From the NCBI GenBank assembly GCA_027080775.1, contig JALWPV010000042.1:1-62065 (forward strand): DNA of 62,065 nt, written 5' to 3'. Shown piece by piece: positions 16,471-43,527 of the stretch. This DNA comes from Acidilobaceae archaeon. Lineage in GTDB: Archaea; Thermoproteota; Thermoprotei_A; Sulfolobales; Acidilobaceae. Each line of letters begins with the position of its first letter. The stretch's first letter is position 1. The notes beneath the pieces were generated by a model. It ran no database searches and had not been told where the DNA came from. It saw nothing but the letters and a program-made list of their open reading frames with translations. Both the position numbers and the translations under genes were made by a program.

Positions 16471-19400
16471 CTAGCGGGGGCCCACTAGCTCCTCGTAGGG
16501 CGGGAGCTCCTCGGCCTCCCCCCGCTCGGGGGGGCGGCGCGGGGCTAGCCTCCAGCCGGCGTAGAGGCCCGCTGCCAGGGCCGCGGCGGCTGCCCCCGCT
16601 ATGAGGGCGTATGGGGGCCCGGCGCTGGCCTGGGTTTGGATGAACACGATGCCGGGGCTGTTGATTACTATGTGGGTTGCGTAGACCCTGCCCTTGTAGG
16701 TTATGAGGGCCTTGTAGGGCCCCGCTGGCAGGATGGCGCTCGCCCCCGCTGGTAGGGTTAGCTTGAGTGCGCCGCTGGAGAGGGTGATCCTCGCCCCCCG
16801 GAGTAGCTTGCCCTTGCGTGATAGCGGCATGAGGGTCACGTTGTAGGATGGCCTGGTGACGCCGAGGGCTAGGGTGTAGGTCTCGTTCCCCACCGGTATG
16901 GTGGCTCTGGTGGTTAGGGGCTTGTAGTAGGGCTCAAGGGGCGTCACCGTTATGGTGTAGGTCATGCCCTGGAGCAGGGCGAGCCTCGCGGTGCCCTGGG
17001 TGGCGTTGGCCACGGTGATGTAGCCGTAGAGTGGGTTGAAGGCCTTGACTACACTCGGCACTAGGGCGCCCGTGGCCTTATCGTAGACCACGACCGTCAC
17101 CTGGGAGTAGAGCCTGGCCAACCTCAGGGTTAGGGTGGTGGCGGCGTTCAGCGTCACGCTAGCCGTTGCGGGTGCGTGGCCCGGGGCCCGCGCCGTGATG
17201 TTGTAGACGCCGGCCGGGAGGGCCAGGGTTAGGGTGCCGCTGGTGTTGTAGGAGCGCCTCACAGCACCCCCCAGGGGCCCCCAGACAACTACGGTTGCTG
17301 GGAGCGGCTGCCCGTTTGCGGAGTCCACCACGCTTATCTTCAGGGTTGCGATGGGCCTGTGGAGGATTATGGTGTAGTGCAGCACCGGCAGCACTGGGGA
17401 GACCCTGAGGGCCTCCCTCGCGGTGGCGTGGTAGGGGGCTGACACGGTTAGCGTGTAGACCCCCCAGGGTACGAGGATCCTCGCGTGCCCCCCGGGGCCC
17501 GTCGTGAGGCTCGTGTTGTAGAGGCTCGACGCGACCTCGACCCTCGCACCGGCTATGGGGGCGCGGGTTATGGAGTCCGTCACCACTAAGTCTAGGACTA
17601 CCCTGACCCTCTCGAGTGCGAGCCTCAGGGTAGAGGGGGCCGAGAGGGGGCCGACGCTGGCGTTCGCGGGCGCGTAGCCGGGGGCCTCTATGACTAGGTT
17701 GTACTCCTCCCCGGCCCTGAGGCGCAGAACCGCCGTCCCGTTGCCCGTGGCCCTCACGCTATCGCCGCTGGACTCGGACCAGGCCCTTACGGTGAAGCCA
17801 ACCGGCTCCCCCGTGAGGTGGTCCGTCACCACCAGCTCCAGGGTGACCCTCTTCCTCTCGAGGTGCACCACAACCGAGAGCGTCTTGTTGGGCTGCACGA
17901 GTATCGTGGAGGTGTAGGCCTCATAGTAGGGGGCCCGCACGCTGAGCGTGTAGACCCCCCAGGGTAGGCTAGCCTCCTCCCCCTGCCTGAGCGGGATGGC
18001 CCTGGACTCGTTGTAGAGGGGCCTCAGCTCCAGCGTGGCGCCGGGCACGGGCGCCCCTGTCTCGCTGTCCCGGACCACGACGACGACCGTGCCCTCGAGC
18101 CTCTCCAGGGCGAGCGTGAGCCTCGAGCCAGCCTGGATCGTGGCGGTGGCCGGCTTGTAGCCCGTTGATGTGACCCTCAACACTAGCCTCCAGGGCTCTG
18201 GGAGGGCTAGGAGCGCCTCCCCCCGGGCCTGGCCCGCCTCTAGGAGCAGGGGGCCCCCGGGGGTGAGGGCCTCTATGGTGTAGTTGAATGCTAGGGGCTT
18301 CCCGGTTAGGGCGTCAGCCACGGCTATACTAGTGTTGGCGTAGACCGGCTCGAGCCTGAGGAGGAGCGTGGACCTCGACCCCGGCTCCAGCGTAGCGTTC
18401 AGGGCCTCCACCCTATAGCCCGGGGCGCCCGCGAGGATCCTGTAGGACCCCCATGGCAGGCTCAGTACCACCCGGCCCCCGGGCGCCGAGGCGTCCAGCC
18501 TGTAGCTGCCTGGGCCTAGGAGCCTCAGGGTGGCGTTGACTGGCAGGCCGAATAGGCCATCCACGACCCTGACCTCCAGGGTGGCGTTGAGCCTCTCCAG
18601 CCGGGCCACATACACGCCGGGGCCCGGCGCCGGGATTGCTGCGGGCTCGTAGCCGGGGGCCTCAACTACTATCGTGGCGTTCCAGGGCCTGAGCGCCAGA
18701 GTTGCCTCGCCAGTGGCGTTCACCGCTCCAAGGTAGACCCTGCCCCTGGGGGTGTAGGCGTAGGCCCTCGCTGTGAAGCCCAGGGGGGCCCCCGTTAGGG
18801 CGTCCCTAACCACGATGGTGGCATTATACCTCGCCGGCTCCAGGTAGACGGTGCAGGCCAGCGTGGCGTTGGCCTCAAGCCGCAGGGAGGCCTCGTAGGC
18901 CCTGTAGCCCGGGGCCTCGACGACTAGCCTGTAGGATCCCCAGGGGAGCCTCACCACGGCCTCCCCGTTGGGGAGGCTGACGTTCACCAGGCCCTGGGGG
19001 CCCCTGAGGGTTGCGGTAGCGTTGACTGGGAACCCGTAGTCGGCGTCGACTACCCTCAGGTCTAGGGCGCCCTCGAGCCTCTCGAGGCCCGCCACCAGGC
19101 TCGTGGGCCCCGACACGTTGGCCTCCGCCGCCCATAGGGCGTAGCCTGGGGCCCTCAGCGTCACCCTATAGTGGCCCGGGGGTAGCTGGAGGGTGACGCT
19201 TCCGTTAGGGGCCTCTATCCCCGCGGTGCGGCCCGTCGCCCCGAGCGTTAGTGTAACGTTGAACCCCACGGGGGCCCCCGTTAGCTTGTCGCGGGCCTCC
19301 AGCACTACCCTGTAGAGGATGGGCTCTAGGGTCACGTTGGCCAGGCCGCCCCTATAGGGCTCGTAGCCCCCCAGCGAGACGGCCATGGTGTAGGAGGCCT

Positions 19401-21252
19401 CGAGCCCCGCCCTAACCGGGATCCCGGGGGCCCACGAGAGGTAGGGGGGAAGCAGTGCCTCGAGGAGGCCATTCTGGGCCACTCTGGCTTCGACCCTGCC
19501 CCACGGGCTCTCCACGTAGCCAGTAGCCCCGGCGGCAGGGCCCCTGGGCAGGAGTCCTAGGGGGTCGGGGGCCCTCGAGACCTCCACCCTGACAGTTACC
19601 ATGTTATACTCTATAGTGGCGCTGGAGAGTAGGCCCCCAGCCGTAAGGTAGGTGCTCGAAGGCCCCAGGAGGGCGTCCCTAGTGCTCGCCTGGTAGCGGC
19701 CTGGGGGCACCCAGAACCTCGCAACCCCCTCGGGGTCCGTTTTGGCGGAGTATGAGCCGCCCGCGAGCCCTGTTAGGGTGACCGTGAGGCCGGGGCCCAG
19801 GGGCCTGCCGGAGGCTGTGGCCGCTATGTCGACCTCGACGAGCCTCCCGGGCTCTAGAACAGCCACCAGGCCCCCGGGGCCGGCCTCAAGGAGGCCCCAG
19901 CCAGCGCTAGCCAGGTGGGCCCCGGGTAGGGGTATCCCTGGGGGCCGGCCCCAGAGGGGCTCCCCTGTACTGTAGTCTAGTAGCTCGAGGCCCCCGGGGC
20001 CGGCGGCGGCTAGCCCGCCCGTCCAGGGTGAGAGGGCCTCCACCCCACCCTGGGGGGATGGCTGGGAGGCCCAGGCTAGTGTTGAGCCCTGGGGCCTGTA
20101 CCTGTAGTAGTACACGGCTACACCATCGGTGAGCGCTAGGGCTGGCTCCCCGCTCGCGGGGTCTAGGAGAGCCACTATACCATGGGGGGCCGGGGCCCTG
20201 GGGAGTATGGGTGAGTCCCTCAGGCTGGCATTCAGCGGCGCCCCCTCGGCTGCGTAGACCTCGAGCCTCCACTGGCCCCCCGCCCCCACTAGGGCGGCTA
20301 GGATGCCCTCCCGGAGCGCGGGGTTCCAGGAGCCGACGAGGTAGCGGGGCAGGGGCTCGGCCCCGGGGCCCCACTGCTGGTACGCCCCTGCCACTTCGTC
20401 GGAGACTAGGTCTAGGAGTAGCACGGCCGTGGAGTTGAGTGTCACCGTGAAGTTCACCCTCGACCCCCCGACCTCGAGTTCGACCCAGGCGCTTGCCTCC
20501 TCGGCGGCGGCCGCGGGCACCATGGAGGGGCTGGGGGTCGAGGAGCCGGGGGTCACGTTATAGATGGCGCCGGTCCAGAGGATCCTCGGGGCCCCCATGG
20601 CGCGGGCCCCCATGGCTATGATGGCTGCTCCGGGGTGCTGGTGGAGGGCCTGGGTGAGGGCGTAGTCGAGCGCCCTCTGGACTAGGATGCGTGAGACCTC
20701 CCGGGTCAGGGGCTCGCCGGGGGCCGCGGGGCCCGCCTTGATGCTCCAGGCGCCGCCGGGGTGGCCCGTGTAGAGGTTGCCGTCAGCATCTACAACCCAG
20801 AGGGTGCCCGTGGCGGGGTCTAGCCACAGGCTCCCCGGCCTGGGGGTTGAGTAGAGGGCTGAGAGCCAGAGCCTGGTCTCGTTGTCCTCGTACACGAGGG
20901 AGCCGCACATCCTGGGCGGGGCTACGAGTACGGCCCCGGGGCGCTCACCCCAGGCTGTCTGGGCTAGGTAGGCGAGGCCCTCGGGGGCTCCCTGGAGGGG
21001 CCCCGCCCCCTCCCTAGTGATTAGCAGGAGCGTGCCGTCCTCGAGGAGGGCGGCTACCCTGCCGCCCCCTATGGCTGCGAGGGCCTCCACCCTGGGGGTC
21101 TGGGTGGTGTTGAGGGCCTCGCAGGGGCACCAGGATAGCCTGGCCCACGCCGCCTTGGCCTGGTAGTGGCTCCCAGAGCCGCCTAGGGCCTGGGGGGCTA
21201 GGGCTACTGCCGCCAGGAGGGCCGCCGCTAGGGCTGCTGTTAAGGCCTTCAA
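16471..21252 (-). CDS. giant secreted membrane-anchored repeat protein, 1593 aa
   Basis: A signal peptide (ALTAALAAALLAAVALAPQA) is followed by an N-terminal region of about 450 residues with beta-propeller-like strands (DGTLLLI, GTLWVVDADGNLY), then about 12-13 tandem beta-sandwich repeats of about 80-95 residues (residues about 475-1540) of the carboxypeptidase-regulatory/PEGA type. Each has a D-x-x-T/F-G-x-P start and a PWGSY or PAGVY turn before an APGY strand. A C-terminal transmembrane helix (near residues 1545-1563) and a short charged tail follow. Many Asn-x-Ser/Thr sites suggest N-glycosylation. It probably projects from the cell surface, as an S-layer-associated or adhesive protein; function unproven. 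A TATA-like element lies at about 21287. Confidence 0.8.
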   Translation of the reverse strand: MKALTAALAAALLAAVALAPQALGGSGSHYQAKAAWARLSWCPCEALNTTQTPRVEALAAIGGGRVAALLEDGTLLLITREGAGPLQGAPEGLAYLAQTAWGERPGAVLVAPPRMCGSLVYEDNETRLWLSALYSTPRPGSLWLDPATGTLWVVDADGNLYTGHPGGAWSIKAGPAAPGEPLTREVSRILVQRALDYALTQALHQHPGAAIIAMGARAMGAPRILWTGAIYNVTPGSSTPSPSMVPAAAAEEASAWVELEVGGSRVNFTVTLNSTAVLLLDLVSDEVAGAYQQWGPGAEPLPRYLVGSWNPALREGILAALVGAGGQWRLEVYAAEGAPLNASLRDSPILPRAPAPHGIVALLDPASGEPALALTDGVAVYYYRYRPQGSTLAWASQPSPQGGVEALSPWTGGLAAAGPGGLELLDYSTGEPLWGRPPGIPLPGAHLASAGWGLLEAGPGGLVAVLEPGRLVEVDIAATASGRPLGPGLTVTLTGLAGGSYSAKTDPEGVARFWVPPGRYQASTRDALLGPSSTYLTAGGLLSSATIEYNMVTVRVEVSRAPDPLGLLPRGPAAGATGYVESPWGRVEARVAQNGLLEALLPPYLSWAPGIPVRAGLEASYTMAVSLGGYEPYRGGLANVTLEPILYRVVLEARDKLTGAPVGFNVTLTLGATGRTAGIEAPNGSVTLQLPPGHYRVTLRAPGYALWAAEANVSGPTSLVAGLERLEGALDLRVVDADYGFPVNATATLRGPQGLVNVSLPNGEAVVRLPWGSYRLVVEAPGYRAYEASLRLEANATLACTVYLEPARYNATIVVRDALTGAPLGFTARAYAYTPRGRVYLGAVNATGEATLALRPWNATIVVEAPGYEPAAIPAPGPGVYVARLERLNATLEVRVVDGLFGLPVNATLRLLGPGSYRLDASAPGGRVVLSLPWGSYRILAGAPGYRVEALNATLEPGSRSTLLLRLEPVYANTSIAVADALTGKPLAFNYTIEALTPGGPLLLEAGQARGEALLALPEPWRLVLRVTSTGYKPATATIQAGSRLTLALERLEGTVVVVVRDSETGAPVPGATLELRPLYNESRAIPLRQGEEASLPWGVYTLSVRAPYYEAYTSTILVQPNKTLSVVVHLERKRVTLELVVTDHLTGEPVGFTVRAWSESSGDSVRATGNGTAVLRLRAGEEYNLVIEAPGYAPANASVGPLSAPSTLRLALERVRVVLDLVVTDSITRAPIAGARVEVASSLYNTSLTTGPGGHARILVPWGVYTLTVSAPYHATAREALRVSPVLPVLHYTIILHRPIATLKISVVDSANGQPLPATVVVWGPLGGAVRRSYNTSGTLTLALPAGVYNITARAPGHAPATASVTLNAATTLTLRLARLYSQVTVVVYDKATGALVPSVVKAFNPLYGYITVANATQGTARLALLQGMTYTITVTPLEPYYKPLTTRATIPVGNETYTLALGVTRPSYNVTLMPLSRKGKLLRGARITLSSGALKLTLPAGASAILPAGPYKALITYKGRVYATHIVINSPGIVFIQTQASAGPPYALIAGAAAAALAAGLYAGWRLAPRRPPERGEAEELPPYEELVGPR
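16640..19830 (-). repeat. tandem beta-sandwich repeats within the giant surface protein
   Basis: Roughly 12-13 units of about 240-280 bases. Units tend to alternate between one form reading D-x-LTGxPxGF and another reading D-xx-FGxPVNA or with PWGSY, implying duplication of a two-unit block. The copies are diverged at DNA level, so this is old duplication held by protein selection rather than a fresh tandem repeat. Confidence 0.7.
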
Positions 21253-21304: not shown

Positions 21305-24064
21305 CTAGGGCGCGCCGCCTTCCTCGAGGACCGCCCCGGCTAGGGCCTCCTCGAGGCTCTCGGGGTCTATGCTGGGGAGTGTGAGGCTCGCCCTAGGCCC
21401 CCTGCCCCCGCCCCTGCCTCCTAGCCTCGCGGCCAGCCTCCTGGCCAGGGCCCCGGCGTCGAGCCTCTCAGCGGCCTCCCTGCCGAGGGCTATCTCAGCC
21501 ACGCCGCCTGTGTCGCCGGGTATAATGGCGGCCGCCACGAGGTCTGGGTAGGCGCTGGTCAGCTTCCTGAGCATCTCCTGGGCGACGCGCCTATCCCGCT
21601 CTGGGACCCCGAAGGCCAGGATCCTGTAGGCCCCAGCCCTGCGGGCCCTTGAGGCCCTCTCGAGTAGCTGGGCGGTGTAGTGCTCCCTGTAGGCCTTGAG
21701 GCCCTCCTCCAGCCTCTCCTGGTGCTGGAGGGTGCTCCTGAGCCTCTGGGGGAGGTCCTCGCCGTGGCCGCCGAGTAGCTTGGATGCCTCCTCTATGATG
21801 CCCTGGAGCCTAGAGGCCTCCTCGGCGACCCTCGTGCCCGCCACGTATTCGAGCCTGACTACACCGTCCTGTATCCTCTCGGCCCTCACGATCTTGACAG
21901 CGCCGACCTCCCCAGTGTTGGTTAGGTGGGTGCCGAAGCACGCCTCGACGTCCCAGCCGTCTATCTCCACTATCCTCAGCCTAGCCTCCATGGGGACGCC
22001 GCCCTGGTAGATCCTGAAGCCGTACCTCTCCTCGGCCTCGTTCCTATCCATGATGAAGGCCCTCACGGGCCTCCTCTCGTCTACCACCCTGTTGGCTAGC
22101 TCCTCTATTCTCGCGAGCTCCTCCCGGGTCAGGGGCTTGTGGTGGGTGATGTCGAGCCTAGCCTTCTCCACCGTCTTCTCGGCCCCCGCCTGCCAGACGT
22201 GGTCCCCGAGGACCCTGCGGGCGGCGCCTAGTATGATGTGGGTCGCCGTGTGGTGCCTCATCAGCCTGTACCTCCTCGGCCAGTCTATCTCGCCCTCCAC
22301 AACAGCGCCGGGCTCGGCCTCGACGCTGCGGTCAAGCACGTGTACTATGACGCCCCCGACCTTGTAGGCCGCCTCCACCCTGGCCTCCCCCCAGGGGCCC
22401 CTTAGGACGCCCACGTCGTAGTCCTGGCCCCCGCCCTTTGGGTAGAAGGCCGTGGCCTCCAGCACGGCGTACCTGCCCTCGACCACTGCTAGGAGCTTGG
22501 TATGGAACCTCCTCATGTAGGGGTCCTCGTGGAAGAGCCTCCGGGTCTCGGGCATGCCCTTGACTGCCTCGACTACGCTCTGCGGTAGGGGCGCCTTCTC
22601 CTCGACCCTCCTCACCCTCTCCGGGGCCTGGTGGCGGCCCGCGACTATACTGTAGAAGTTGTGGGGCACCTCGACCCTGACGCCCCTCTTGGCCGCCTCC
22701 TCGGCCACTATCTCGGGCGGCACGCCATGGCTGTCGTAGAGCACAATCAAGTCGTCGAGGCTGAGGGCCTTCTTCCTCTTGAGGAGCCTCGCTGTGAGCT
22801 TCGAGCCCCTCCTGAGCGTCTCGGCGTACCTCCTCTCCTCGAGCTCCACCGCCTCGAGTATGTAGTCCCTATGCTCCCTGAGCTGCGGGAAGTCCCCGGA
22901 CCAGTAGTCGATCTGGAGGTCCACAAGCTCCGCGAGCCCAGCCTCGGCGCCTAGGAGGGCCAGCTGCCTCATAGCCCTCCTGGCCACGAGCCTCGCCAGG
23001 TAGCCCTCCCCACTGTTGCTCGGCACAACGCCGTCGGCGAGCATGAGGGCTATAGTCTTGGTGTGGTCTAGCACGCTGTAGAGCCTAGCCTCCCTCTCGA
23101 GGGCAGCGCGGGCCTCCCCAGGGTCGAGGCCAGAGGAGCTGGCGACCCTGGAGTAGTAGGCCTCAACGCTCGAGGGGTCCTCGGGATCCAGCCTCCCCGC
23201 CGCCCTGAAGGCTGCCCAGAGCAGCTCCCCAGGGGGCTCCTCGACTCCTAGCCTCGACCTGAACTCGCCGAGGAGGCGCCCGTAGATGGCGTGGAAGGCT
23301 GTGGGGGTCTTCTGGGTGAACCAGGCCATCCTCTCAACGCCGTAGCCCGTGTCGACTATCTTGAGTGGTATGGGCTCGTAGCGCCCCTCCCCCGCTACCC
23401 TGTACTGCATGAAGACCAGGGTCGCCAGCTCGAGGCCCCCGACTGTGACCTCGAAGCTGGGGCCAGCGTTGCCCCCTCCCTCCCACCAGCTCTCCTTAAA
23501 TACTATGAGGTCCCCGGGTATCCCTAGCTCCCTCGTGAAGAACTCGAATGCGAGCCTCACAGTCTCGTCCTTCCAGTAGACGCGCTTGTCGGGGTAGTTG
23601 AAGGCGTGGTGCGCCGCCATCTCGAATGTGGTGAGGTGCCTCCCAATCGTTAGGCCCACGTTGTCTATGTCCTCGAGCCTGATACTCGGCTGACTGATAA
23701 CCAGGGGGTTGGCGGGCGGGGGCACGAGGCCGCTGGTGACGTGGGGCTGGAAGACCACGATGCTTGCTATCGTGAGGTAAAGGTCCTCCCTCCACCTGGC
23801 GACGACGGGCCTCGGCTTGACGGGCGTGTGGCCGTGCCTCTCGAAGAAGCCTATGAAGGCCCTCCGGGCCTCGGAGACGCTCATGGGGGGCCTCGAGGGT
23901 ATCTTGTCGAACCAGTACTCCACGCAGGGGGCGTCCTGGCACGTGTCGAGGTCGGGGTTGAGGGTCCAGAAGTACTCGCCCCCCACCCTGCACCTCTTCC
24001 TGGTGAAGCCCTCCTCCCTGAAGAAGTCGAGCCTATACTCCTCCTCGCCGGCCCTACCGCTCAC
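21305..24064 (-). CDS. alaS: alanyl-tRNA synthetase (archaeal type)
   Basis: 919-residue archaeal AlaRS. The archaeal N-terminal extension REEGFTRKRCRVGGEYFWTL...DTCQDAPC is present, then the class II catalytic core (YRVAGEGRYEPIPLKIVDTG, GVERMAW). The editing domain has HHTATHIILGAARR and the second zinc half-motif CFGTHLTNTGEVG, and a C-Ala oligomerisation domain ends with glycine-rich sequence. The usual first CxxC of the N-terminal knuckle reads CRVG here. ATG start. A separate AlaX editing protein is encoded at 53 kb. Confidence 0.95.
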   Translation of the reverse strand: MSGRAGEEEYRLDFFREEGFTRKRCRVGGEYFWTLNPDLDTCQDAPCVEYWFDKIPSRPPMSVSEARRAFIGFFERHGHTPVKPRPVVARWREDLYLTIASIVVFQPHVTSGLVPPPANPLVISQPSIRLEDIDNVGLTIGRHLTTFEMAAHHAFNYPDKRVYWKDETVRLAFEFFTRELGIPGDLIVFKESWWEGGGNAGPSFEVTVGGLELATLVFMQYRVAGEGRYEPIPLKIVDTGYGVERMAWFTQKTPTAFHAIYGRLLGEFRSRLGVEEPPGELLWAAFRAAGRLDPEDPSSVEAYYSRVASSSGLDPGEARAALEREARLYSVLDHTKTIALMLADGVVPSNSGEGYLARLVARRAMRQLALLGAEAGLAELVDLQIDYWSGDFPQLREHRDYILEAVELEERRYAETLRRGSKLTARLLKRKKALSLDDLIVLYDSHGVPPEIVAEEAAKRGVRVEVPHNFYSIVAGRHQAPERVRRVEEKAPLPQSVVEAVKGMPETRRLFHEDPYMRRFHTKLLAVVEGRYAVLEATAFYPKGGGQDYDVGVLRGPWGEARVEAAYKVGGVIVHVLDRSVEAEPGAVVEGEIDWPRRYRLMRHHTATHIILGAARRVLGDHVWQAGAEKTVEKARLDITHHKPLTREELARIEELANRVVDERRPVRAFIMDRNEAEERYGFRIYQGGVPMEARLRIVEIDGWDVEACFGTHLTNTGEVGAVKIVRAERIQDGVVRLEYVAGTRVAEEASRLQGIIEEASKLLGGHGEDLPQRLRSTLQHQERLEEGLKAYREHYTAQLLERASRARRAGAYRILAFGVPERDRRVAQEMLRKLTSAYPDLVAAAIIPGDTGGVAEIALGREAAERLDAGALARRLAARLGGRGGGRGPRASLTLPSIDPESLEEALAGAVLEEGGAP

Positions 24065-41526: not shown

Positions 41527-43527
41527 TTATTGGGGTGATATTTGCGGTTGCGGGGAGCGCCTGGCGAGGGCGCACACCACTATTGCTGCCAGAGCCGCCC
41601 CAAGCGCTGCGGCCGAGAGGGCCTCTGCCCCCCTGCCGCCCAGGGGCCCGGGGGAGGCCGTGGGGCTCGCGGGGCTTCTCGTCGTCGTGCCTGTGGCCTG
41701 GCGCTGGGCGCCGCCCGCCTGGCTAGTGGCTGTGTGGCTCCCTGTGTTGCCCGCGTTGCTGGCTGTGGTTATGGGCGCCGGGGGCTTCCCCTGGGACTCG
41801 CTGAGGATCCTCTCGAGCCAGGAGTAGAGGACGGCCTTGCTGGCGGCGATGAGCCTCACCTCGGGGCTCCCGGCTGACTCGGCAAGGCCTAGGAGGGCCC
41901 TCGAGACCGCCCCGAGGTCTCCGGAGGGCTGGAGGGCCCCGGCTATGAGTGTGAGCTGCCTGGCCGTCCTCGAGGGCTCGAGCGTGAATGTCTCGTGTAT
42001 CACCCGGGTGGAGGCCGCTATAGACTCTATGGAGAGGCCTATCACCGCCGCCGGATCCCTCGAGGCTAGGGCCTCCCCCGCAAGGGCCTCAGCTAGGCCT
42101 GCCCTCGAGACAGGGGCCCCGGCCTCGCCCAGGAGGGTCTCGAGGTACGCCACCGTGGTCCTGGCCTGGGCCTCGAGGAGCGATGCCAGCCTGGCGAGCC
42201 TCTCCCTCGAGACCGGGGGTCCCGGGGGCGCTATCCTGGTGAGGTTAGCCCAGAAGGAGGCCCAGTAGGCCGTGGCCCCCGCCTGGGCCAGCGTCTCGAC
42301 CCCGCGGGTGTCGAGGCCGGAGAGGAGGGTGTAGGGTATGTAGTAGCGGCCCCCACTATGGTCTAGGAGCCTGAGCGCGGCCTTGTAGTAGTAGGCGGCG
42401 ACGCCCAGCATCCCGTAGGCCCTCGCCGCCAGCAGGTACCCGAGGGCGCCCCCGGCGCTGGAGCTGGCGTTGGCGGCCTCGTCCCAGGCCCTTATGATGC
42501 TCGAGTTAACCGCCTCCACCACGCCGGTCACGTCGAGCCTGTGCCTGAGGCCCCAGGTGAGGTAGCTGGCCTCGAGTGCGTCGGCGTAGGCCTGCACGGC
42601 CGTTATTGCAGCGTCGTAGGGCCTCCCCTCGCCCAGGAGCCTGAGGGCCTCGCGGGCCTCGCTGGTGGCGTTCGCTGCCAGGGCCGCTATGAAGCCGTAT
42701 CCCCGGGCGGCGCCCTCGAGGGTCTCGTTGACCCTGCGGGCCGTGAGCCTCACGTAGACCCCGAGGGCGTCGGTGAACCAGCCGGGCAGCTCGGTCGTGG
42801 CCGGCCTCACCTCGAGGCTCCTGTTCGTGGCGAGCTCATACTCCTCGAGGAGGGTGGCGGCCGTGGCGACGCGTACCCCCAGCTTCTCACCGTAGGCAGT
42901 GAGGTTCACCGTGACGGGCTCCCTGACGACCCACACGAAGGGGCCCAGGGTCTTGTAGACCGTCTTGTAGTAGGTGTAGACCTCCTGGCCGGCCGGCACT
43001 ATGAAGAGCCTCGCGCCCCCGCGGGCCGCCGCCTCTAGCTTCTCCTTCAACCCGCCCACGGGCCCTATGCTGGCGTCGGGCTGTATCATGCCCGTCACGT
43101 CGACCCTGGGGTTGCAGGTTGCGTTGGTTAGGAGGTCCAGCGTCGCGAGAGCCATGGCCGCCCCGGCGCTTGGGCCCCCGACTATTATGCTCGGCACCTC
43201 TATGGCGTAGTAGAAGTCGTACCTCATCATGTCAACACCCGCGAGGAGGCTCGCGGCGAACGCCGCCAGCCTCGCGCTCCCCTGCGTGTCAATCTCCGCG
43301 GCGGGGCTAGTGGAGATGTACACCCTACCCGAGCCGGGGTAGCGGATGGTAACAGTCAGGTTACCCAGCACCCCACCCCCAGCGCTCGAGACAGCCACGA
43401 TGTGGATAGTGCAGCTCCTAACCCAGCCCCCACCCCCAGCGGGGGAGGCCGCAGCCACGGCTCCCGGGGGCAGGGAGGCGGCCAGGAGGGCAACCACAAG
43501 CGCCAGGGCGGCGGGGCGGAGCCTCAC
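41527..43527 (-). CDS. secreted, membrane-anchored Lon-type (S16) serine protease
   Basis: 666 residues. Signal peptide (LALVVALLAASLPPGAVA), then an S16 domain over about residues 38-185 with the Ser-Lys dyad: S120 in IVGGPSAGAAMA and K161 in IGPVGGLKEKLEAA, 41 residues apart, close to the Lon spacing. No AAA+ ATPase module is present. A long helical domain with several N-glycosylation sites follows, then a Thr/Ser/Pro-rich stalk (about 595-635) and a C-terminal transmembrane helix (ALSAAALGAALAAIVVCAL). The protease should face the outside of the cell and work without ATP. Substrate unknown. Confidence 0.85.
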   Translation of the reverse strand: MRLRPAALALVVALLAASLPPGAVAAASPAGGGGWVRSCTIHIVAVSSAGGGVLGNLTVTIRYPGSGRVYISTSPAAEIDTQGSARLAAFAASLLAGVDMMRYDFYYAIEVPSIIVGGPSAGAAMALATLDLLTNATCNPRVDVTGMIQPDASIGPVGGLKEKLEAAARGGARLFIVPAGQEVYTYYKTVYKTLGPFVWVVREPVTVNLTAYGEKLGVRVATAATLLEEYELATNRSLEVRPATTELPGWFTDALGVYVRLTARRVNETLEGAARGYGFIAALAANATSEAREALRLLGEGRPYDAAITAVQAYADALEASYLTWGLRHRLDVTGVVEAVNSSIIRAWDEAANASSSAGGALGYLLAARAYGMLGVAAYYYKAALRLLDHSGGRYYIPYTLLSGLDTRGVETLAQAGATAYWASFWANLTRIAPPGPPVSRERLARLASLLEAQARTTVAYLETLLGEAGAPVSRAGLAEALAGEALASRDPAAVIGLSIESIAASTRVIHETFTLEPSRTARQLTLIAGALQPSGDLGAVSRALLGLAESAGSPEVRLIAASKAVLYSWLERILSESQGKPPAPITTASNAGNTGSHTATSQAGGAQRQATGTTTRSPASPTASPGPLGGRGAEALSAAALGAALAAIVVCALARRSPQPQISPQ

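Follow-up and report, generated by a model that had tools for sequence, protein, structure and literature searches.

A giant membrane-anchored surface protein with a thirteen-unit rod in an Acidilobaceae archaeon: a possible stalked head of a TackOD1-type pilus system

Proteins with CarboxypepD_reg (PF13620) and PEGA (PF08308) repeats occur in archaea and bacteria, and share the repeat family, the fold and the tandem surface array of the giant protein described here (hereafter A, a label that covers the protein, its gene and its orthologues). They differ from A in its 13 units, two-domain period, head of ~440 amino acids confined to three genera, type I anchor and acidic tail; the repeat family of A is already known, and its architecture is unusual. 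The Sulfolobus S-layer anchor SlaB likewise carries several beta-sandwiches on a membrane anchor and matches A structurally at the level of domains. The available portion of PMC10903991 describes SlaB as having three sandwiches and, at the membrane, a long trimeric coiled coil, whereas A has 13 sandwiches and a head, lacks the coiled coil and shows a very patchy distribution. Large predicted adhesins or S-layer-like components, C-terminally anchored or secreted, have been assigned to archaeal pilus loci (Makarova, Koonin and Albers, 2016; PMC4858521, available portion), and A is also large and C-terminally anchored. The same portion of that paper mentions neither carboxypeptidase, propeller, Aeropyrum nor TackOD1, and lists for Desulfurococcales only three to four untraceable extra components. 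Pilus-tip adhesins of the PilY1 type, represented in archaea by DUF2341 (PMC4858521, same portion), have the role that is proposed here for A, that of a pilus-associated binding head; in contrast to them, A sits in the membrane on a rod of its own and is devoid of DUF2341, which was not among its Pfam matches up to E 1. TackOD1 (PF18551), the partner of A in the locus proposed below, was seen earlier in thaumarchaeal pilus loci (PMC5847659, available portion); in our genomes it occurred in Acidilobaceae and other families of the order Sulfolobales, beside giant head-rod proteins. No description of A, or of CarboxypepD_reg giants at archaeal pilus loci, was found in the literature searched, including the available portions of PMC4858521, PMC11868833, PMC10903991, PMC2952790 and PMC5847659, although supplements may list an arCOG for the second giant family (B, see below).

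The analysed DNA (the window) was a stretch of 62,065 nucleotides, contig JALWPV010000042.1 of assembly GCA_027080775.1, whose genome is referred to as G000. The initial annotation had placed a giant surface protein at 16471–21252, and exactly these coordinates were filled by one open frame of 1593 amino acids with a TTG start and Pfam repeat matches; this gene and all features given below for it lie on the minus strand. A signal peptide (residues about 1–24; 21181–21252) was detected by a hydropathy scan, with the cleavage point set by eye, and the N-terminus, likewise by eye, resembled an ordinary Sec signal; a type IV pilin would carry a class III signal peptide. It is followed by an all-beta head with a helical insertion (residues about 25–468; 19849–21180), which a low-confidence model and profile comparisons mark as a possible beta-propeller. 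Unit comparison and models divided the rod into two divergent sandwiches without alternation (R1–R2, residues 469–646; 19315–19848), ten clear CarboxypepD_reg/PEGA-type sandwiches (R3–R12, residues 647–1469; 16846–19314), which were also supported by Pfam and PDB matches, and a divergent last unit modelled with low confidence (R13, residues 1470–1547; 16612–16845). A hydrophobic segment (residues about 1548–1568; 16549–16611) was recognised by eye and in orthologues. The hydropathy scan that found the N-terminal signal did not flag it at a threshold of 1.7; a transmembrane stretch was obvious at its position in the orthologues of genomes G004 and G017, and the C-terminal membrane anchor of the initial annotation was retained. 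Residues 1569–1593 (16474–16548) form a presumed cytosolic tail, recognised in the sequence and compared with other tails, in which a region rich in R and P (by eye) separates the anchor from an acidic stretch. The architecture of head, 13-unit rod and membrane anchor is real and well defined, and A is very probably an extracellular protein, best explained as a cell-surface glycoprotein with type I membrane topology. Gene order and Pfam identified the same-strand gene 52 bp upstream (21305–24064) as alaS; its best matches, in MAGs named Acidilobaceae, were 76 and 77% identical over nearly the full length.

The rod comprised 13 units of 80–97 residues between residue 469 and about 1553, starting at residues 469, 550, 647, 728, 809, 889, 972, 1054, 1136, 1218, 1302, 1383 and 1470, close to the units of about 80–95 residues that had been annotated from residue about 475 to 1540. 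CarboxypepD_reg matched A with 173.5 bits in nine stretches (cut-off 32.3) and PEGA with 90.4 bits in four (cut-off 20.8). Most pairs among R3–R12 gave Z-scores of about 5 to 31 (lowest 0.6; 100 shuffles per pair), and R1, R2 and R13 were weakly similar to the remaining units. The self-comparison proposed with the initial annotation did reveal periodicity: its diagonals peaked at offsets of 327, 163, 164 and 162 residues, where scores clearly exceeded that at offset 82, and peaks at 163 and 327, i.e., twice and four times the unit, are expected from a two-unit block. The annotated alternation of two sequence types in R3–R12 was a trend without a clean rule, since pairs of the same parity were more alike on average (mean Z 12.1, n = 20) than pairs of opposite parity (8.5, n = 25), yet three of the 126 possible 5/5 splits ranked ahead of the alternating one, which came only fourth.

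The closest inner pairs were R4/R6 and R5/R7, each one block apart, and the orthologues of G004 and G017, from the sister genus to that of the window protein, were shorter by one two-unit block, an absence best placed at R6–R7. The suggestion that a two-domain block had been duplicated is therefore correct for at least one event. Unit comparison, orthologues and the unit tree (only 84 columns, and only 15 of 43 inner branches well supported) point to a rod partly built through such duplication, with R4–R5 (residues 728–888; 18589–19071) as the presumed source and R6–R7 (residues 889–1053; 18094–18588) as its nearest block. A recent homogenised repeat array was considered and rejected: several units have positional orthologues elsewhere, and R4/R6, the closest pair, is itself old.

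AlphaFold models of R1–R5 and R5–R12, based on input alignments of 4 and 5 sequences, reached pLDDT values of about 70–92 and 75–93, respectively. Beta-sandwich units, which had been anticipated from the sequence, were confidently predicted across R1–R12, with carboxypeptidase D domains as the top structural matches in the PDB (1qmu_A, carboxypeptidase D domain, Z 12.8, rmsd 1.4 Å over 78 residues; 5aq0_B, Z 12.9, rmsd 1.6 Å over 81 residues). Pfam, models and PDB matches agree in assigning the rod units to the carboxypeptidase-regulatory/PEGA type, with a transthyretin-like sandwich fold. Strands ran up to the anchor in the model and the only helix had 11 residues, the last unit and the anchor being of low confidence. 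Assuming 3.5–4 nm per domain, the head would be held tens of nanometres above the membrane by a rod estimated to be long enough to clear an S-layer of ~35 nm.

The annotated N-terminal propeller-like region gained weak support: the head showed hints of blades in sequence and fold, but its model, with blade-like strands, was mostly below pLDDT 50 and A matched no propeller family of Pfam up to E 1. The DDB1 propeller matched the head with Z 8.5–8.8 but with an rmsd of 12–13 Å. A PDB sequence search with A returned only two weak matches, the designed proteins Cake4 and Cake3; one of the two, which we take to be a designed propeller, matched residues 148–190 of the head at E 0.05. Resemblance to the heads of other giants was likewise restricted to the level of blades, and the head of A may, with low confidence, be called propeller-like.

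Of the 41 Asn residues of A, 31 lie in N-X-S/T sequons (5.1 expected; 0 of 500 shuffles as high), compared with 14 of 112 in 17 control proteins of the window, nine of the 14 in a single protein. An STT3 oligosaccharyltransferase gene is present in G000 (contig C11), and from sequon enrichment together with STT3 we predict that A is very probably N-glycosylated. Three g13 paralogues examined had one to two sequons each. Searches for STT3 found none in the six g13 genomes (G015, G023, G031, G064, G065 and G066) or in the four g5 genomes covered, and gave only one sub-threshold match in three g10 genomes. Exceptions were G008 and G027, with STT3 and without sequon enrichment, and G016, with the reverse. 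Aeropyrum pernix has been reported to lack an oligosaccharyltransferase (PMC2952790, available portion). Sequon density could serve as a reusable sign of N-glycosylation, for which Aeropyrum-like genomes without oligosaccharyltransferase would be a natural control. The control protein with nine sequons (9 of its 12 Asn) is a 666-aa Lon_C-domain protein (window 41527–43527, minus strand), probably a surface or membrane protease that may face outwards; a Lon_C protein also adjoins a giant at locus L117. In G050, an STT3-like gene lies directly upstream of a 1017-aa giant (L048:6448-8676).

A first search of the genome contigs with the whole A protein found no relatives, and further giants were recovered through the A repeats. 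Across the order's 214 genomes, the profile of the A head had five strong matches, all within one family and spread over three of its genera; the sole further match (E 6e-4) was the head of a family-B giant. The architecture was not restricted to the window, as a check proposed at the outset had asked: it recurred in A orthologues of three genera as well as in family B and other giants. In g1 and g2, A adjoined alaS at four orthologous loci, some of them partial, a common neighbour that we place outside the proposed system; of 41 alaS loci with at least 2.5 kb of downstream DNA, 37 lacked A. After alaS in G001 lies a decayed A copy (L037:7479-9720, contig C12), with the head lost, the frame broken and about five units left, a decay that could partly be an assembly error. 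In G003, a contig break inside the repeat array splits the A gene (L033:1-2838 and L034:26-1378).

Family B is paralogous to A and has the same architecture; its heads aligned with those of A with an hhalign probability of 76% (E 2e-5), against 0.1–0.2% for reversed decoys. G000 itself encodes a B protein of 1903 aa (L040:9066-14774, contig C28), divergent from an operon with pilus ATPase, TadC and pilin genes. B was found at 20 loci, spread over 19 of the family's 36 genomes, and two more genomes were matched only through A; in another test, the B profile was unmatched in four of five named genomes. T2SSE lay within 5 kb of the 5′ end of B, in divergent orientation, at 12 of the 16 loci with a usable flank, where about 0.02 would be expected per locus (left out, as cut by a contig end at a distance of 400 bp or less: G001, the first copy of G009, G028 and G031), and T2SSF followed T2SSE wherever the contig reached. 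The B genes not adjoining T2SSE were those of G015, G023, G030 and the second copy of G009; the short flank in G030 has the gene order of G014, where the ATPase is 4.2 kb away. The ATPases of B-type loci formed one clade in the tree, separate from those of TackOD1 loci (the row Blink_G016 was disregarded, being read in the wrong frame, interrupted by stops and placed on a spuriously long branch). Outside the family, T2SSE and/or T2SSF adjoined seven of ten giants found via the A repeats, and a Pyrodictium MAG had the same divergent ATPase/giant pair. Giants ranged from about 940 to 2140 aa. UpsX was set aside as a putative relative of the giants on the basis of pilus loci: no giant was seen at four of them in HS-7 or at one each in two other Sulfolobales genomes. 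The link to pili is strong for these relatives of A and suggestive for A itself.

For A, physical linkage was seen in a single orthologue, that of G013 (head E 1e-24 to A of G017), which adjoins T2SSF (TadC) and a TackOD1 protein at a contig end of a 55%-complete genome. Giants of G175 and G213 and the second giant of G051 also adjoin TackOD1-T2SSE-T2SSF loci, and the A head resembled TackOD1-linked giants of other families weakly (hhalign 58.7%, E 9e-5; pairwise E 0.001 to 0.3). G000 has a TackOD1-type locus with a pilin-like gene, T2SSE, two T2SSF halves and a divergent TackOD1 gene (L155:6779-12040, contig C28). No giant lies in this locus or in those of G002, G004 and G017; in G000, G004 and G017, the A gene adjoins alaS, away from the pilus locus. 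Homologues of T2SSE and T2SSF were not found in the window, nor in the available flanks of A in G000, G003, G004 and G017. TackOD1-pilus loci without a giant alongside were also seen in G148 and G149. Across the 36 genomes of the family, with TackOD1 called at E under 1e-100, four had both the A head and TackOD1 (G000, G004, G013 and G017) and 30 had neither; G003 (63% complete) had the head alone and G002 (66% complete) TackOD1 alone. The p-values for this co-occurrence (Fisher p 4e-4; at genus level both in 3 of 14 genera and none with only one, p 0.003; kinship uncorrected) serve only as a guide because the genomes are related. The three A genera may form one clade, in which case the co-occurrence could be a single event.

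We propose that A is the stalked head, either adhesin or docking partner, of a TackOD1-type type IV pilus system, with a probability of roughly 0.5. The signal peptide would export A and the C-terminal segment would fix it in the membrane, while the chain of 13 sandwiches would lift the N-terminal, probably propeller-like head clear of the S-layer. The pilus ATPase and TadC would assemble the pilus, beside which A would carry the binding head. Through its short cytosolic tail, A could be coupled to TackOD1, a zinc-ribbon protein, or to the machinery of pilus assembly; this tail is acidic and lacks the EEEYF-type end of pilus-linked B proteins, most B proteins ending in an acidic tail of EEYF type. 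The adhesin role named in the initial annotation is compatible with the pilus linkage and stays putative.

The co-occurrence of the A head with the TackOD1 locus and the linkage in G013 both weigh against A being a free-standing surface adhesin or receptor, which would be built like the pilus-linked giants but untied from the pilus, having moved to the alaS locus in g1 and g2. Such an untied protein is nevertheless what the g1/g2 loci would suggest, since alaS adjoins A in all four of them and no pilus genes were found in their examined flanks; moreover, the decay or loss of A in G001 would suit a surface protein that is dispensable. We regard this explanation as rather unlikely, though as the most serious competitor of a pilus-associated head. 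The decay in G001 counts against an S-layer-spanning stalk, also raised in the initial annotation, in which A would be a structural anchor functionally like SlaB. The row of beta-sandwiches on a membrane anchor would suit this role, as would the estimated rod length relative to a layer of ~35 nm (PMC10903991, available portion), and the PDB matches included SlaB (8qox_B; Z 10.7 and 10.9, 142 residues), where an rmsd of 13 Å means agreement domain by domain. However, the head family is rare (5 of 214 genomes) and mostly missing beside alaS, the model has no coiled coil, and G000 has a separate candidate for an S-layer stalk, G000:C48:3481-4470, part of a 1549-aa frame resembling the coiled-coil, membrane-anchored giant of G023. 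Owing to this rarity, the G001 decay, the architecture and the other coiled-coil candidate, the stalk is unsupported as the main role of A and appears improbable, even though rod length alone would fit.

Surface proteins related to carbohydrates commonly contain transthyretin-like and PEGA domains, and A might instead be an antenna for uptake that binds sugars or peptides, with carbohydrate bound by the sandwiches. Two ABC-type ATPase genes, identified from the sequence by eye, are found a few genes away from A in G004 and G017, but these do not adjoin A in g1, and genes for binding proteins, permeases or glycosidases are not conserved beside A across genera. An antenna is the least probable of these explanations, and very unlikely overall.

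We also offer a tentative and on balance doubtful generalisation. In the order Sulfolobales (sensu GTDB, including the former Desulfurococcales), each pilus machine might have its own giant stalked head, consisting of head, rod, membrane segment and short acidic cytosolic tail: B with one ATPase clade and A with TackOD1. Gaining or losing two-domain blocks would adjust the length of the rod, perhaps to envelope height, and TackOD1 together with the tail would act as a cytosolic switch. To our knowledge, the pilins of archaeal pili are known and the binding parts mostly are not; if, in hyperthermophiles, each pilus machine has such a giant as its fixed partner, the giants would be direct candidates for the missing adhesins. 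The divergent ATPase/giant gene pair would then, if true, be a simple way to find such giants in any genome. Block-wise change of rod length between orthologues is, beside sequon density, a second reusable check. The link of the giants to type IV pili is new and testable. CarboxypepD_reg units were also seen in a giant surface subtilase with a C-terminal anchor (L114:2637-7676 and G000:C74:1291-3108), which was present at least partly in four further genomes and may be an S-layer-associated protease.
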